Of a DNA stretch of 33,997 nt, positions 8,596 through 26,268 are shown piece by piece. Origin of the DNA: Thermoleophilia bacterium. GTDB taxonomy: Bacteria > Actinomycetota > Thermoleophilia > Gaiellales > Gaiellaceae. The notes below the pieces were generated by a model, which saw only the letters and a list, made by a program, of their open reading frames with translations, was not told the origin of the DNA and ran no database searches. A program made the translations under genes and the position numbers. The stretch spans positions 1 through 33,997 of the forward strand of contig JABFWJ010000119.1 in NCBI GenBank assembly GCA_013362295.1. The letters are read 5' to 3'. How positions within the stretch are numbered: position 1 is the stretch's first letter; each line of letters opens with the position of its first letter.

Positions 8596-9332
8596 CAGAA
8601 GAACGCGAGCTTCACGATCAGCACGATGGCGACGATTGCGACGACGACCATGACGAGCATCACGAGGCCGCTCGCGGCTGACCTGACCTGTGACCCCGGC
8701 CCGACGAGGGCCTGCTCGAGCTGCCGCTCGACGTAGGCGTTGATCCGCTCCTCGAATCTCGACTCGATCGTGTCCGCCCGCTCCGTCTTCAGCGGCTTCG
8801 ACGCGGCCGGGGCGCCGTCGACGGAGAGCTCGTAGATGTGCTCGTGCTGGATGTCCTTCAGGTTCTGCTGTCCGAGGTCGTGCACCTGGACGCCGTCGGG
8901 CAGCTGGTTGCCGAGGAGCGCGCGGGTCGTCTCGGAGACGAGGATCTGGCCGCCGTGGCCGGCGGCAGAGATGCGCGCCGCCCGCACGACGTCGATGCCG
9001 AGGTAGCCCTCATCGCCGAGGCTCGGCTCGCCGGTGTGCAGCCCCATGCGCACGCGCACCTCGACGCCGTGCGGCCACGTGTGACCGCGCAGCGTTCGCT
9101 GCGCGTCGACGGCGGCGCCGACGGCGTCACGTGCACGCGGGAAGGAGAAGAAGAACGAATCGCCCTGCGTGTCGATCTCCGTTCCGCCGCGGGCGCCGAA
9201 GGCCTCGCGCACGATCCGCCGGTGCTCGCGCGCGAGCTCCGCGAAGTCGTCGCCGAGCTCCTGCAGCAGACGCGTCGAGCCTTCGACGTCGGTGAAGACG
9301 AACGTGACGGTGCCGCCCGGCAGGCCGCTCAT
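8595..9332 (-). CDS. Class III adenylate/guanylate cyclase domain protein with a C-terminal TM anchor
   Basis: '[19 protein letters not shown]', '[13 protein letters not shown]', '[25 protein letters not shown]'; C-terminus '[24 protein letters not shown]'; TGATG overlap with maoC-like gene. Confidence 0.9.
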
Positions 9333-9338
9333 CGCGCC

Positions 9339-9345
9339 TACGCTA
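9339..9345. promoter_or_regulatory. Overlapping antiparallel -10 boxes (TACGCT on +, TAGCGT on -) in an 18-bp divergent spacer
   Basis: +: TACGCT-N6-GTG(9351); -: TAGCGT-N7-ATG(9332). Confidence 0.5.
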
Positions 9346-9350
9346 CCCGC

Positions 9351-11252
9351 GTGAACCGGCTGGCCCAAGAGACGTCGCCGTATTTGCAGCAGCATGCGCA
9401 CAACCCGGTCGACTGGCAGCCGTGGGACGACGAGGCGCTCGCACGCGCACGCACCGAGGACAAGCCGATTCTGCTCTCGATCGGCTACGCCGCGTGTCAC
9501 TGGTGTCACGTCATGGAGCGCGAGTCGTTCGAGGATCCCCTCACCGCGCGGGTGATGAACGACAACTTCGTGAGCATCAAGGTCGATCGGGAGGAACGGC
9601 CCGACCTCGACTCGATCTACATGGACGCCGTGGTCGCGCTGACCGGCCACGGCGGCTGGCCGATGACCGTGTTCCTCAAGCCGACGGGTGAGCCGTTCTT
9701 CGGCGGCACGTATTTCCCGCCCGAGCCGCGGCACGGGCTGCCGTCGTTCAAGCAGGTGCTGCTTGCGATCGCCGAGGCGTGGCAGGAGCAGCGCGACGAG
9801 GTCGACCGCTCCGGCGCAAACCTCGCGGAGCACATCCGCTCGGGCGCGCGGCTGCCGGCGTCGAAGGACCCGCTCACGGCGCAGCTGCTCGACGATGCGC
9901 AGCGCAACCTGCACCACGGCTTCGACCCGCAGTGGGGCGGCTGGGGCAGGGCGCCGAAGTTCCCGCCCGCGCCGGTGCTCGAGTTCCTGCTGCGGCGCGG
10001 GGAGGAGGAGATGACCCGCCGCACGCTCGACGGGATGGCGCTCGGCGGGATGTACGACCTCGTCGGCGGCGGCTTCCACCGCTACTCGGTCGATGAGCGC
10101 TGGCTCGTGCCGCACTTCGAGAAGATGCTGTACGACAACGCGCTGCTCGCCTCCGTCTACCGGCAGGCGTGGCGCCGCTTCGGCGAGGAGCGCTACCGGC
10201 GCATCTCGGACGAGACGATCGACTACGTCCTGCGCGAGCTCGCGCTCGACGGCGGCGGGTTCGCGTCTGCGCAGGATGCGGACACCGCCGGCGTCGAGGG
10301 GCAGACGTTCCCGTGGGCGCCGGGCGAGGGCGCGCCCGAGGAGTTCCTGCAACCGTTCGAGCACGGCCGTTCTGTCCTCCGCGGCGAGCTCGACGACGCC
10401 ACGCGCATGCGGTTGCTCGAGCAACGCGCGCGGCGGCCGCAACCGGCGCGCGACGACAAGGCGATCGCCTCGTGGAACGGCCTGATGCTCGCCGCGCTCG
10501 CACAGGCCGGGCGCGTCGAGCCTGCCGTACGGCTTGCGGGATTCCTGCTCGGGCCGCTCTCCACGGAGGGGGGCCGCCTTCACCGCACCTATCGTGGAAA
10601 AACCCTGCGCGACGGCGTGGCCAAGGGCACGGGATACCTGGAGGACTACGCCGACGTCGCCTACGGCCTGATGGAGCTGCACGTCGCGACCGGCGAGCCG
10701 CGCTGGCTGCGCGAGGCGCACCGGCTCGCGACCCTGGCGGTCGATCTCTTCGCCGACGACGAGAGCGGCGGGTTCTTCCAGGCGCCGCGCGACGGCGAGC
10801 AGCTCGTCGCGCGCAAGAAGGAGCTGGACGACCATCCGACCCCGAGCGGGAACGCGATGATCGCGTACGTCCTCCTACGGCTCGCGCGCATCTGGGGCGA
10901 CGACGAGCTCGAGCGCCGCGGAGTCTCGGTCCTCCGGCTGGTGCGCGACATGCTGACGCGCACGCCGTCGTCGTTCGGCTGGCTGCTCGTCGCGCTCGAC
11001 CAGCACCTCGCGCCGCACCGTGAGCTGGCGATCGCCGGCAGCCCGGACGCGCCGGTCGCGCGCGCCGCCGTCGAGCGGGCCGCCGCGACCGACGTGATCG
11101 CGTTCGGGCCCGCGGAGGACGTGCCGCTGCTCGCGGGACGCACAGAGATAGACGGCCGCGCGGCCGTCTATCTCTGTGAACGGTTTGCCTGCCGCCTACC
11201 TGTTACCGAACCGGATGAGCTTCCCGCTCGCGCTCTGCCTCTTCCGCCGTGA
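9351..11252 (+). CDS. DUF255 / YyaL-type thioredoxin-domain protein
   Basis: '[24 protein letters not shown]', '[21 protein letters not shown]', '[18 protein letters not shown]'. Confidence 0.93.
11141..11178. repeat. Perfect 38-bp palindrome within the 3' part of the DUF255 coding sequence
   Basis: CACAGAGATAGACGGCCG-CG-CGGCCGTCTATCTCTGTG; all 19 bp of each arm match. Confidence 0.95.
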
Positions 11253-21597: not shown

Positions 21598-22383
21598 ATG
21601 CGGGTCGCGCTGTGCCTGGTGGTGACCGCCCTCTTCGTGGTACCGCTGGCCCTCGCCTCGCCGATCGGGCCGGACCCCATCCGCCGCCCGCACGTCGTTC
21701 TCCAGTGGGAGCAGACGCGCGCGCTGAACGCCGCTCTGCGCCGCGGCGAGCCGATCTACTGCGGCGGCGGGCATGCGAACGTCGTCGCGTTGACGTTCGA
21801 CGACGGGCCGGGACCGTTCACCGAGCAGCTCCTCGAGCTGCTCCGGCATGCGGGCGCGCATGCCACGTTCTTCGTCGTCGGGAGCCGGCTGCAGGACTGG
21901 CCCGACGCGCCGCACGCCGAGTCGCAGGTCGGTGTGATCGGGAACCACACGTGGTCGCACGCGCATCTCACGACGATGCCGACCTGGCTCGTCTGGGCCG
22001 AGCTCCTGCGGACGCAGTACGAGACGCTGCAGGTCCTGGGCTGGAAGCCGCGCCTCTTCCGTCCGCCGTACGAGCAGCACAACGCGGCGACCGACAGGGT
22101 CGTGCGCTCGCTCGGGCTCGTGCAGGTCATGTGGTCCGCGACGTCGGGCGACGACCTCCGGCACCCGACGAGGAGATCGGTCGCACGCAACGTGATCCGC
22201 GAGCTCCGCCCCGGCGCGATCGTGCTGATGCACGACATCCATCCCTGGACGATCGAAGCAATGCCGGCGATCCTCGCTGCGATCCGCGCGCGCGGACTGC
22301 GCGCGGTCTCGATCCCCGAGCTGCTGGTGCTCGACCCGCCGAGGCCGCGTCAGCAGTGCGCGTTCGCGCCCGGCCTCGACTAG
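21598..22383 (+). CDS. Polysaccharide deacetylase (NodB homology)
   Basis: 'VALTFDDGPGPFTEQLLELL', 'GNHTWSHAHL', 'RPPYEQHN', 'IVLMHDI'. Confidence 0.92.
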   Translation: MRVALCLVVTALFVVPLALASPIGPDPIRRPHVVLQWEQTRALNAALRRGEPIYCGGGHANVVALTFDDGPGPFTEQLLELLRHAGAHATFFVVGSRLQDWPDAPHAESQVGVIGNHTWSHAHLTTMPTWLVWAELLRTQYETLQVLGWKPRLFRPPYEQHNAATDRVVRSLGLVQVMWSATSGDDLRHPTRRSVARNVIRELRPGAIVLMHDIHPWTIEAMPAILAAIRARGLRAVSIPELLVLDPPRPRQQCAFAPGLD

Positions 22384-22982
22384 GACGCAGCCGCTAACTG
22401 CTCGAATGCGCGCTCGAACACCGCGCGGGGCTGCGCTCCCGGAACGAGCAGCTTGCCGTCGATCACCCAGGCGGGAATGCCGTTGACCCCCACCGACTGC
22501 GCGTGCGCGGTCGAGGCGTGCACGCGCTCGCGGTACTCGTCGGTCGCGAGTACGCGCTCGACGTCGTCCGCGGGCAGGTCGTGCAGTAGCCGCCGCAGCT
22601 CGTCCCGGTCGCCGATGTCGACTCCGTCGCGCCAGTAGGCGTCCATCGTCCGACTGTGGATCTCCTCGTGACGGCCGATGTCTCGCGCCAGCTCGGTCAG
22701 CCGGAGCGCGTCGAACGAGTTCGGAACGGTCTCGGGATTCGGGTTGTACGCGAGGCCCTCTTCTGCGAACCGCTCCTGCAGGCGCTGCTGGAAGGAGTCT
22801 CCGTAGCGAGCAGTCAGCGCGGCCCGGGGCAATCCGGCGCGTGGATACTCGGGGTGGAGATCGAACGGAAGCCACGTCACCTCGGCGTCGTACCGGCGCC
22901 GGAGCCACTCGGCCAGCGGCTGGCCGATGCGGCAGAACGGTCAGATGTAGTCCGACCAGACGAGTATCTCGTGCGCGGCCAT
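22380..22982 (-). CDS. DsbA/FrnE-like thiol-disulfide oxidoreductase; candidate selenoprotein with in-frame TGA at codon 14 (U-P-F-C)
   Basis: ATG at 22982 abuts the lysA stop; MAAHEILVWSDYI-[TGA]-PFCRIGQPLAEWLRRRYDAEVTWLPFDLHPEYPRAGLPRAALTARYG..., no other in-frame stop until TAG at 22380-22382; TGA replaces the first Cys of CPFC. Confidence 0.7.
22909..22927 (-). promoter_or_regulatory. Candidate bacterial SECIS stem-loop downstream of TGA (22943-22941)
   Basis: UCGGCCAG-CCG-CUGGCCGA, 8-bp perfect stem beginning 13 nt after UGA; opening one pair gives loop GCCGC. Confidence 0.4.
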
Positions 22983-24242
22983 CTATGTCTCCAACGCCAG
23001 CAGGTCGTCGACGGTCTCGCGGCGGCGGATCAGACGCGCCTCGCCGTCACGCACGAGCACTGCGGGCGGGCGGGGGACCGCGTTGTACGTCGACGACATC
23101 GCGAGCGTGTATGCGCCTGTCACCGGCACGGCGAGCAGGTCGCCTCGGCGCGGCTCCGGCAGGTCGACCCGCTCGATCAGGACGTCGCCGGACTCGCAGT
23201 GCTTTCCGGCGACCGAGTACGGCTCCGCAACGTCCTCGTCGGCGCGGTTCGCGAGCAGCGCCGTGTAGCGCGCGTTGTACATCGCGGGGCGCGGGTTGTC
23301 CGACATGCCGCCGTCGACCGTGACGTACGTCGTTGCGGCGCTCGCCCGCTTCACGCCGCCGACCGTGTAGAGCGTCACGCCCGCGCGCGAGACGAGTGAG
23401 CGGCCCGGCTCGAAGATCAGCTGCGGATCCGGGAGACCCTGCAGAGGCCACGTGCGCTGCAGCTCGCCGAGGAGGCCGCCGACGAACTCCTCGATCGTGA
23501 ACGACGGCTCCTCGAGCACGTGCCGCACGCCGAGCCCACCGCCGAGGTCGATCACGCGCGGTGTCCACCCGAGCTCGGCCCGCAGGCGGACCGCGAAGCT
23601 CGAGATCCAGTCGACGGTCATCAGCGAGGCGCCGAAGTGCAGGAGCTGCGATCCGACGTGGACGTGCAGCCCCTCGCATTCCGGCAGCCGCCGGATCGCC
23701 TCGACCGCGTCGTCCGGCGGGAGCCCGAACTTCGATCCGTGATGCGCGGTCTTCACCGCTTCGTGCGTGTCGGCTTCGATCCCCGGCGTGACCCGGACGA
23801 GGAACCGGGTCGCGTCGATCGCCCGCGCACGCTCGAGCTCCTCGAGCGAGTCGAGCACGATCAGTGCGCCGGAGCCCGCGGCCCGGCGGAGCAGCTCGTC
23901 CTCCTTGTTGTTGCCGTGGATCACGAGCCGCTCGCCTGGGACCCCCGCGCGGAGCGCAAACTCCAGCTCGCCGACCGTCGAGACGTCGGCGCCGAGGCCC
24001 TCCTCGGCCAGGACCTGCAGCACCGCGACGGAGGGAAATGCCTTCGTGCCGTAGGCGACGAGCGCGCCCGGGGCGGCGGTCAGGTACGCGCGCGCGTGGC
24101 CGCGGATCGTCGCCTCGTCGTAGACGACGACCGGCGTGCCGAACTCGCGCGCGAGCTCGGTCGAGCGCACACCGCCGAGCACGAGCTCGCCGTCCGCGAC
24201 GCGTGCGGTGTCGGGCAGGAGATCCGTCAACACGGCAGGCAT
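22983..24242 (-). CDS. lysA: Diaminopimelate decarboxylase
   Basis: 'GTPVVVYDEATIRGHARAYL', 'YGTKAFPSVAVLQVLAEEGLGADVSTVGELEFALRAG', 'HGNNK', 'HVHVGSQL', 'CESGDVL'; start may alternatively be ATG at 24251. Confidence 0.93.
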   Translation of the reverse strand: MPAVLTDLLPDTARVADGELVLGGVRSTELAREFGTPVVVYDEATIRGHARAYLTAAPGALVAYGTKAFPSVAVLQVLAEEGLGADVSTVGELEFALRAGVPGERLVIHGNNKEDELLRRAAGSGALIVLDSLEELERARAIDATRFLVRVTPGIEADTHEAVKTAHHGSKFGLPPDDAVEAIRRLPECEGLHVHVGSQLLHFGASLMTVDWISSFAVRLRAELGWTPRVIDLGGGLGVRHVLEEPSFTIEEFVGGLLGELQRTWPLQGLPDPQLIFEPGRSLVSRAGVTLYTVGGVKRASAATTYVTVDGGMSDNPRPAMYNARYTALLANRADEDVAEPYSVAGKHCESGDVLIERVDLPEPRRGDLLAVPVTGAYTLAMSSTYNAVPRPPAVLVRDGEARLIRRRETVDDLLALET

Positions 24243-24249
24243 TCTGCTC

Positions 24250-26268
24250 ATGCCGATGCTCGCAGCGCTCGCCGACCTCGCACATCGCCGCAGCCGCGCG
24301 ATCGCGGTTGGGGCGCTCGCGATCGCGCTCGCGGCCGCCTGGTTCGGGGCGTCGACTCCGTCGCGGCTCGAGTCGAGCGATAACGACTTCCAGGACAGCT
24401 CGTCGGAGAGCTTCCGCACGCTCGACCTGCTCTCGCGCGCGACCCACGTCCTTCCGGGCCCCTCGCTGGTCGTCGTCGCTCCGCCTCGCGAGGCGCGTGC
24501 CGCCGCGGCGCAGCTGAGGCGCGACCCGGCGGTCGCTCGTCTGCAGGCTCCCGCGGCGGTGTCGCGTGACGGTCGGCTGGTGCTCGTGGCCGCGTGGTTT
24601 CGCACGCACGGTTCGGCAGCGGCCCCGAACGTCTCGCAGCTCGCGCGCTCGCTGCCGGGAATCGTCGGCGGCGCGGCACTCGCGAACGAGCAGGTGGGCA
24701 GGCAGTCCGAACGCGACCTGGTGCGGGCCGAGCTGATCGCGTTTCCGCTCCTGCTTCTGCTTGCGCTCTGGATCTTCCGCGGCGTCGTCGCCGCGCTGCT
24801 CCCCGTCGCCGCGGGCCTACTCGCGTTGTTGCTGACGCTCGCGCTCTTGCGGCTCGTCAACGACGTCCGTCCGATCTCGGTCTTCGCGCTCAACCTCGTC
24901 ACGGGCGCCGCCATCGGGCTCGCGATCGACTACAGCCTGTTGCTCGTCACGCGGTACCGCGAGGAGCTCGCCCGCCGCGGGCCGGGGCGCGAGCCGCTGC
25001 GCGCGACGCTCGCGACCGCCGGCCGGACGGTCGCGTTCAGCGCGGGGACGGTCGCCGCGGCGTTTGCGTCGCTCCTCGTCTTCCCGCTGCCGTTCCTGCG
25101 CTCCATGGCGATCGGCGGGATCATCGTCGCGCCTCTGGCGGGGCTCGTTGCGCTCGTCCTGCTGCCGGGGCTGTTCGCCCTGCTCGGCGCGCGCGTCAAC
25201 GTGCTCGCGCCGCGCCGCTGGCAGCGCGCCGCCGAGCGCGCCGCGCGGGCGGAGCAACGCGGAGCCTGGTATCGCTTTGCGCGCTGGGTGATGGCGCGGC
25301 CTGCGCGTGTCGCGCTCGGCTCGGCGGCGCTCCTCGTCGCGCTCGGCGTGCCGTTTCTCGGCGTGCGCTTCGTCGTCGTCGATGCGAGCGTCCTCCCATC
25401 GAGCTCGAGCGCCCGCCGCGCCGACGACACGCTGCGCGAGCGGTTCGCACCCGGGCTCGATGCGCCGCTGCACCTCCTCGTGCGCGCGCGGAGCCCGGCG
25501 CCGACGATCGGTGCGATCCGGCGGCTCACCGGCGTCTCGCGGGTCGCTGCGCCCCAGCGCGTCGCTCCGGGCCTGTGGACGGTCGACGTCGTGCCGCGCA
25601 CGGGTGCGATGAGCGAGCAGACGAAGCAGCTCGTGCGGGACGCCCGCGGGCTCCCGGGTGTCGCCGCGACCGGCCGCACCGCGTGGTATCTCGACACGGC
25701 CGCGAGCCTGCGAAACAGGCTCCCGCTCGCGCTCGCGCTCCTCGCGCTCACGACGTTCGCGCTGCTGTACCTCGTCACTGGCTCGCTCGTGCTCCCGCTG
25801 AAGACGCTCGCCGTGAACGTGCTCGGCCTTTCGGCCGCGTTCGGGATGCTCGTGCTCGTCTTCCAGGACGGCCGCCTCGAGTGGCTGTTGCGCTACCGCA
25901 GCCAGGGCGCACTCGAGCTCACGCAGCCGGTGCTCCTCTTCGCGATCGCGTTCGGGCTCGCGACCGACTACGGCGTCTTCCTGCTTTCGCGGATCAAGGA
26001 AGCACACGACGCCGGTCTGCCGAACCGCGAGGCGGTCGCGCTCGGTCTCGAGCGGACGGGACGGGTGATCACGGCCGCGGCGCTCCTCTTCTGCGTCGCG
26101 GTCGGCGCATTCGCCACCTCGGGCGTCCTGATCGTGAAGGAGCTGGGGCTCGGGATAGCCTTCGCCGTGGCGATCGACGCGTCGCTCGTCCGGGCACTGC
26201 TCGTTCCCAGCCTGATGGCGCTGCTCGGCGACTGGAACTGGTGGCCGCGGAGGCAATTTCGCCGCTAA
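24250..26268 (+). CDS. MMPL family (RND-type) transporter
   Basis: 'AIGLAIDYSLLLVTRYREELARRG', 'AFGLATDYGVFLLSRIKEAHDAG' repeated MMPL motifs, about 11-12 hydrophobic segments. Confidence 0.9.
   Translation: MPMLAALADLAHRRSRAIAVGALAIALAAAWFGASTPSRLESSDNDFQDSSSESFRTLDLLSRATHVLPGPSLVVVAPPREARAAAAQLRRDPAVARLQAPAAVSRDGRLVLVAAWFRTHGSAAAPNVSQLARSLPGIVGGAALANEQVGRQSERDLVRAELIAFPLLLLLALWIFRGVVAALLPVAAGLLALLLTLALLRLVNDVRPISVFALNLVTGAAIGLAIDYSLLLVTRYREELARRGPGREPLRATLATAGRTVAFSAGTVAAAFASLLVFPLPFLRSMAIGGIIVAPLAGLVALVLLPGLFALLGARVNVLAPRRWQRAAERAARAEQRGAWYRFARWVMARPARVALGSAALLVALGVPFLGVRFVVVDASVLPSSSSARRADDTLRERFAPGLDAPLHLLVRARSPAPTIGAIRRLTGVSRVAAPQRVAPGLWTVDVVPRTGAMSEQTKQLVRDARGLPGVAATGRTAWYLDTAASLRNRLPLALALLALTTFALLYLVTGSLVLPLKTLAVNVLGLSAAFGMLVLVFQDGRLEWLLRYRSQGALELTQPVLLFAIAFGLATDYGVFLLSRIKEAHDAGLPNREAVALGLERTGRVITAAALLFCVAVGAFATSGVLIVKELGLGIAFAVAIDASLVRALLVPSLMALLGDWNWWPRRQFRR

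Follow-up and report, generated by a model that had tools for sequence, protein, structure and literature searches.

A predicted selenocysteine insertion element in an FrnE-type DsbA gene of Thermoleophilia

Described DsbA-like selenoproteins and the Thermoleophilia locus

DsbA-like selenoproteins with a UxxC active site entered the selenoprotein catalogues with the Sargasso Sea study, where they appear under COG2761 (PMC1088965), and the GOS selenoproteome is also among their sources (PMC2398784). A 2026 review lists them as DsbA-like form 1, with the domain PF01323 and the motif UxxC (PMC13188914). In the bacterial SECIS (bSECIS) model given there, a loop of 3-9 nt with a G within its first two positions sits on an upper stem of 4-16 bp, the energy is -7.5 kcal/mol or lower, and the apical loop lies 16-37 nt past the Sec UGA (PMC13188914). 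Some real bacterial SECIS elements fall outside this model, according to papers on bacterial selenoproteins. The locus compared here with these systems lies on the minus strand of a 33,997-nt stretch of DNA from a Thermoleophilia bacterium (contig JABFWJ010000119.1), hereafter the window (Table 1).

Table 1 Positions of the predicted selenoprotein gene, its hairpin and the adjoining upstream gene in the window
Feature	Position	Strand	Details
CDS, predicted DsbA/FrnE-like selenoprotein	22383..22982	-	200 codons; ATG at 22982; TAG at 22382-22380; predicted Sec is residue 14
In-frame UGA (predicted Sec codon)	22941..22943	-	First position of the UxxC active site; TGC/TGT (Cys) in other orthologues
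Apical hairpin, predicted bacterial SECIS	22909..22927	-	Stem of 8 bp, or of 7 bp in the open form, whose loop GCCGC begins 20 nt after the UGA
Complete predicted SECIS stem-loop	22904..22933	-	MFE structure, architecture shared by relatives, pair counts
lysA-like PLP decarboxylase, upstream	22983..24251	-	PF02784 (E 6.5e-43), PF00278; synteny

Compared by family description, the window protein shares with DsbA-like form 1 the Pfam domain, a UxxC motif with predicted Sec in first place and a putative bSECIS within the coding sequence after the UGA; it differs in lineage, Thermoleophilia (Actinomycetota) being without a report in the literature searched. COG2761 is presumably the FrnE family, and the solved structures nearest to a profile of the protein and its relatives are FrnE (PDB 5cnw/5cp1, E 3.9e-35) and SCO1869 (PDB 3gl5, E 6.4e-33). 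Both matches extend over the whole length, and the one to 5cp1 aligns the query CPfC (Sec read as Cys) with CPWC, although 5cp1 carries Cys where the window protein would carry Sec. As an in-frame stem-loop just after a UGA, with a dependence on SelB and tRNA-Sec that we infer here, the hairpin resembles the E. coli fdhF-type SECIS but differs from it in sequence and loop. Both the mechanism and the kind of family are thus already known, since DsbA-like UxxC selenoproteins have been on record from the Sargasso Sea study onwards. The Thermoleophilia member is apparently undescribed in the literature searched, and full-text searches, covering few subscription papers, gave no report of selenocysteine or selenoproteins for Thermoleophilia or Gaiella that seemed relevant from its title and abstract.

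The feature is in all likelihood a bacterial SECIS that serves SelB-dependent insertion of Sec into an FrnE-type DsbA selenoprotein. The mRNA hairpin, directly 3' of the UGA and within the coding sequence, would be recognised by SelB together with Sec-tRNA(UCA), and UGA codon 14 would be read as Sec instead of terminating translation after 13 residues. The sequences themselves show a conserved gene with an in-frame UGA, the alternation of Sec and Cys codons among orthologues, the Sec machinery and a selection on the hairpin that is confined to UGA genes, while the binding of SelB, the insertion itself and the location, activity and substrate of the enzyme are predicted. The product would have a thioredoxin fold with UPFC as its active site; it probably works in the cytosol as a thiol/selenol-disulfide oxidoreductase or isomerase.

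A conserved gene with an in-frame UGA

Read as an amino acid, the UGA leaves open a frame of 200 codons with the sequence WSDYIUPFCRIGQ around codon 14, in which UPFC is the active-site motif and its U is encoded by the UGA. Pfam DSBA (PF01323) matches almost the entire protein, without a break at the UGA (E 1.4e-31), and NCBIfam gave no family for it. The region after the UGA is evidently translated and under purifying selection, because in comparison with the nearest congener its dN is 0.18 against a dS of 0.61 (dN/dS ~0.29). Upstream, the stop codon of the lysA-like gene abuts the selenoprotein ATG, a lysA-like gene precedes the selenoprotein gene in seven close relatives as well, and in the window the two are likely co-translated. 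A GGAG stands a few bases 5' of the ATG. Two ordinary neighbours in the window are an MMPL-family transporter (24256-26265, plus strand) and an ORF with a match to a guanylate-cyclase catalytic domain (8598-10835, minus strand).

Among 129 genomes of the order searched in six frames, at least 30 have an orthologue interrupted by exactly one TGA, located at the position of the UGA, and six have a close orthologue with Cys and no stop. Searching the whole class and scanning named genomes enlarged both sets. Their close members carry the labels of Thermoleophilia or of MAGs from other actinobacteria, apart from a few with different labels. The TGA-bearing relatives were separately assembled, share ~42-75% identity and contain no further internal stop, and aligned homologues that lack the UGA have Cys at the corresponding position. 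The protein therefore has what marks a member of this selenoprotein family, namely a DSBA domain in which a putative Sec UGA takes the place of the first active-site cysteine, while homologues have Cys there. The conserved TGA bears directly on whether the codon is a real stop, owing to a pseudogene, to faulty sequencing or to a Cys codon turned nonsense by mutation in the MAG, with the hairpin a chance GC-rich inverted repeat. The source genome is a draft MAG (498 contigs, 82.6% complete) and perfect 8-bp hairpins occur in ~1% of 40-nt stretches, which leaves some room for such an origin, but it is extremely unlikely given a TGA retained at one codon by so many independent assemblies, the low dN/dS beyond it and the Sec machinery in the genome. 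Assembly error is excluded because the TGA is conserved across genera, and together with a pseudogene it was rejected in practice, the dN and dS values included.

Under standard annotation the gene would be ended after 13 codons or started downstream, with loss of the active site in dozens of Thermoleophilia genomes, and ordinary annotation would split a selenoprotein gene such as this in two. Further DsbA homologues with internal stops were also seen. One member of the class (G153) has two DsbA/FrnE copies on contigs C18 and C42 with one in-frame TGA each, and families f7 and f9 seem to hold a second branch of Sec-bearing DsbA proteins, which is more distant. A distant DsbA/FrnE homologue (G310:C25:11551-12165) has one in-frame TAG in place of TGA and is likely a pseudogene or an error.

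The genome of the window encodes the components expected of a selenoprotein host: a tRNA-Sec with a UCA anticodon, a full-length SelB (329 bits), a SelA cut by a contig end, and SelD. Other matches to the tRNA-Sec model that were checked proved to be ordinary tRNA-Ser or tRNA-Leu genes and were rejected. The selB gene (46-1752) and the tRNA-Sec gene (9912-10003) lie ~8 kb apart on a single 10-kb contig (L184, G000:C270). Two FdhA-like formate dehydrogenase genes of the same genome have a TGA at the canonical Sec site, in the contexts SCNRT-U-HAPS and ENQARI-U-HSST; the two loci are L180:436 (G000:C266) and, on the minus strand, L181 at 898 (G000:C188). A third fragment (C266:4441-4656) also contains one TGA. 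Of 62 genomes compared, 41 have the UGA form and 21 the Cys form, and SelB exceeded its curated cut-off in 32 of the former and 2 of the latter (Fisher p 2.7e-7, relatedness ignored); the nine UGA-form genomes that lacked a match over the cut-off are mostly incomplete MAGs. The machinery, the Sec-site TGAs of the FdhA-like genes and the co-occurrence of SelB with the UGA form together indicate that the UGA most probably encodes Sec.

That a conserved gene contains an in-frame UGA does not itself name an amino acid, and the codon could instead yield Trp, Gly or Cys, through reassignment across the whole genome or through suppression by a near-cognate tRNA. The probability of this is negligible, as the residue is Cys in the aligned homologues without UGA and a dedicated tRNA-Sec and SelB exist. 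In addition, the lysA-like gene of the closest congener terminates in UGA directly before the selenoprotein ATG, which shows that the genus still uses UGA for ordinary termination. Genome-wide reassignment was rejected on the strength of this stop and of the tRNA-Sec and SelB.

Fold of the hairpin and the bacterial SECIS model

On the minus strand, 13 nt separate the UGA from UCGGCCAG-CCG-CUGGCCGA, in which UCGGCCAG and CUGGCCGA form a stem of 8 bp, all Watson-Crick, and the CCG triloop starts 21 nt past the UGA. This arrangement had been proposed in the initial annotation and was confirmed exactly. RNAfold likewise recovered the 8-bp hairpin, placing it atop a lower stem GCCGC/GUGGC in which 22933-22929 pair with 22908-22904 and A 22928 is bulged.

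Taken by itself, the window hairpin is modest evidence, because 11 of 200 dinucleotide shuffles were equally stable (z -1.94) and a perfect 8-bp Watson-Crick stem with a loop of 3-8 nt is found in ~1.1% of the GC-rich window's 40-nt stretches and downstream of 6 of its 524 TGA trinucleotides. The initial caution that GC-rich hairpins are common by chance is fair for the single sequence. An Rfam search of the window matched no family.

Measured against the published model, the loop begins within the 16-37 nt range, at 20 nt for the open loop GCCGC and at 21 nt for CCG. The open form, with a 5-nt loop, a 7-bp stem and -12.0 kcal/mol, lies inside the limits for loop, stem and energy, and so does the MFE form (3-nt loop, 8-bp stem, -13.9 kcal/mol). 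An early loop G is present only when the closing G-C pair is opened, at a cost of 1.9 kcal/mol, and is lacking from the MFE loop CCG; the opened loop with G in first place, as originally suggested, is what the published rule calls for. In most close relatives the loop is already open, with the 7-nt sequence AGNNNAC and G second. Some stem-loop satisfied the whole bSECIS rule in 29 of 36 Sec genes versus 5 of 14 Cys orthologues (Fisher p 0.005), and the remaining seven Sec genes failed the simple model.

Selection on the hairpin: Sec genes compared with Cys genes

In this gene set, Sec and Cys orthologues, having the RNA element or lacking it, form a natural comparison. Synonymous resampling of the whole stretch, scored by MFE, gave a mean z of -1.35 in Sec genes against -0.50 in Cys genes (Mann-Whitney p 0.019); as this metric was too blunt, a constrained hairpin, the best one centred on the loop position, was substituted, a choice made after the whole-stretch result. 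The test set comprised 36 Sec genes, 14 Cys orthologues and 33 distant Cys homologues with a mutual DNA difference above 10%, and the null consisted of 1000 sequences per gene in which the protein was fixed and synonymous codons were drawn from the gene's own usage.

Against this null the Sec genes had a mean z of -1.95 and a mean energy of -20.2 kcal/mol, with p<0.05 in 23 of 36, versus a mean z of -0.15, an energy of -9.2 and none of 14 at p<0.05 in the Cys orthologues, values and counts that are not independent trials because the sequences are phylogenetically related. The distant Cys homologues behaved similarly to the latter (mean z -0.21, p<0.05 in 1 of 33), and the window gene itself reached z -2.40 (p 0.03). 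When the test was slid along the Sec genes, the signal peaked at offset 0 (z -1.67), with -0.88 at +27 nt and -0.39, values nearer zero or positive ones elsewhere. UGA genes thus keep the hairpin and Cys orthologues can do without it, as would be expected of a SECIS, and it is these comparative tests that make the hairpin evidence strong. Two outcomes had been set beforehand as speaking against the SECIS interpretation, namely UGA homologues without a stem-loop at this spacing and equal conservation in Cys homologues; neither was observed, and the interpretation is supported.

Covariation differed between the subgroups. In the sister subgroup xERA (19 ungapped genes), 90.4% of the cells of a 12-bp stem are paired, versus 25-56% when the stem is slid, and seven cells are altered on both sides, a number reached by none of 500 shuffles. 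Because the clearest pair joins third codon positions on both sides and is seen as C-G, G-C and U-A, the compensatory changes fall at wobble positions, and the xERA stem is maintained by changes that are synonymous as well as compensatory. The 15 genes of the window's own subgroup pair in 82.7% of cells, in a bulged register, and compensatory changes were looked for and none found; support for the hairpin in this subgroup accordingly comes from the synonymous-codon null.

Perhaps the UGA encodes Sec while the hairpin is idle, a by-product of a conserved protein and GC-rich codons, and some other structure directs insertion. The protein sequence does favour pairing here (null mean of ~-13 kcal/mol in Sec genes), the window's subgroup is without compensatory change, and some Cys genes (L119, L047) form a hairpin too. 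This is nevertheless very unlikely, as the Sec genes, unlike the Cys orthologues, exceed a null that holds amino acids and codon usage constant, the signal is maximal at the offset of the hairpin, and synonymous compensatory changes are found in the sister subgroup.

A broader reading, to which we give an even chance, is that the orthologues constitute an undescribed, lineage-wide Thermoleophilia subfamily of FrnE-type selenoproteins, in which Sec and Cys would be exchanged with gain and loss of selB and the SECIS would occur in two registers outside the GG/GU consensus. As part of the same joint reading, one register would have a bulge and the 7-nt loop AGNNNAC, and the other would be a continuous stem of 12-13 bp with a GAG-containing loop. 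The use of selenium by this group is without a description in the literature searched. The published loop consensus favours G followed by G or U, whereas in the open form of the window loop the G precedes C instead of the commoner G or U, and relatives have AGNNNAC, CGAG or UGAG; the set thereby adds predicted SECIS examples that depart from the usual loop consensus.
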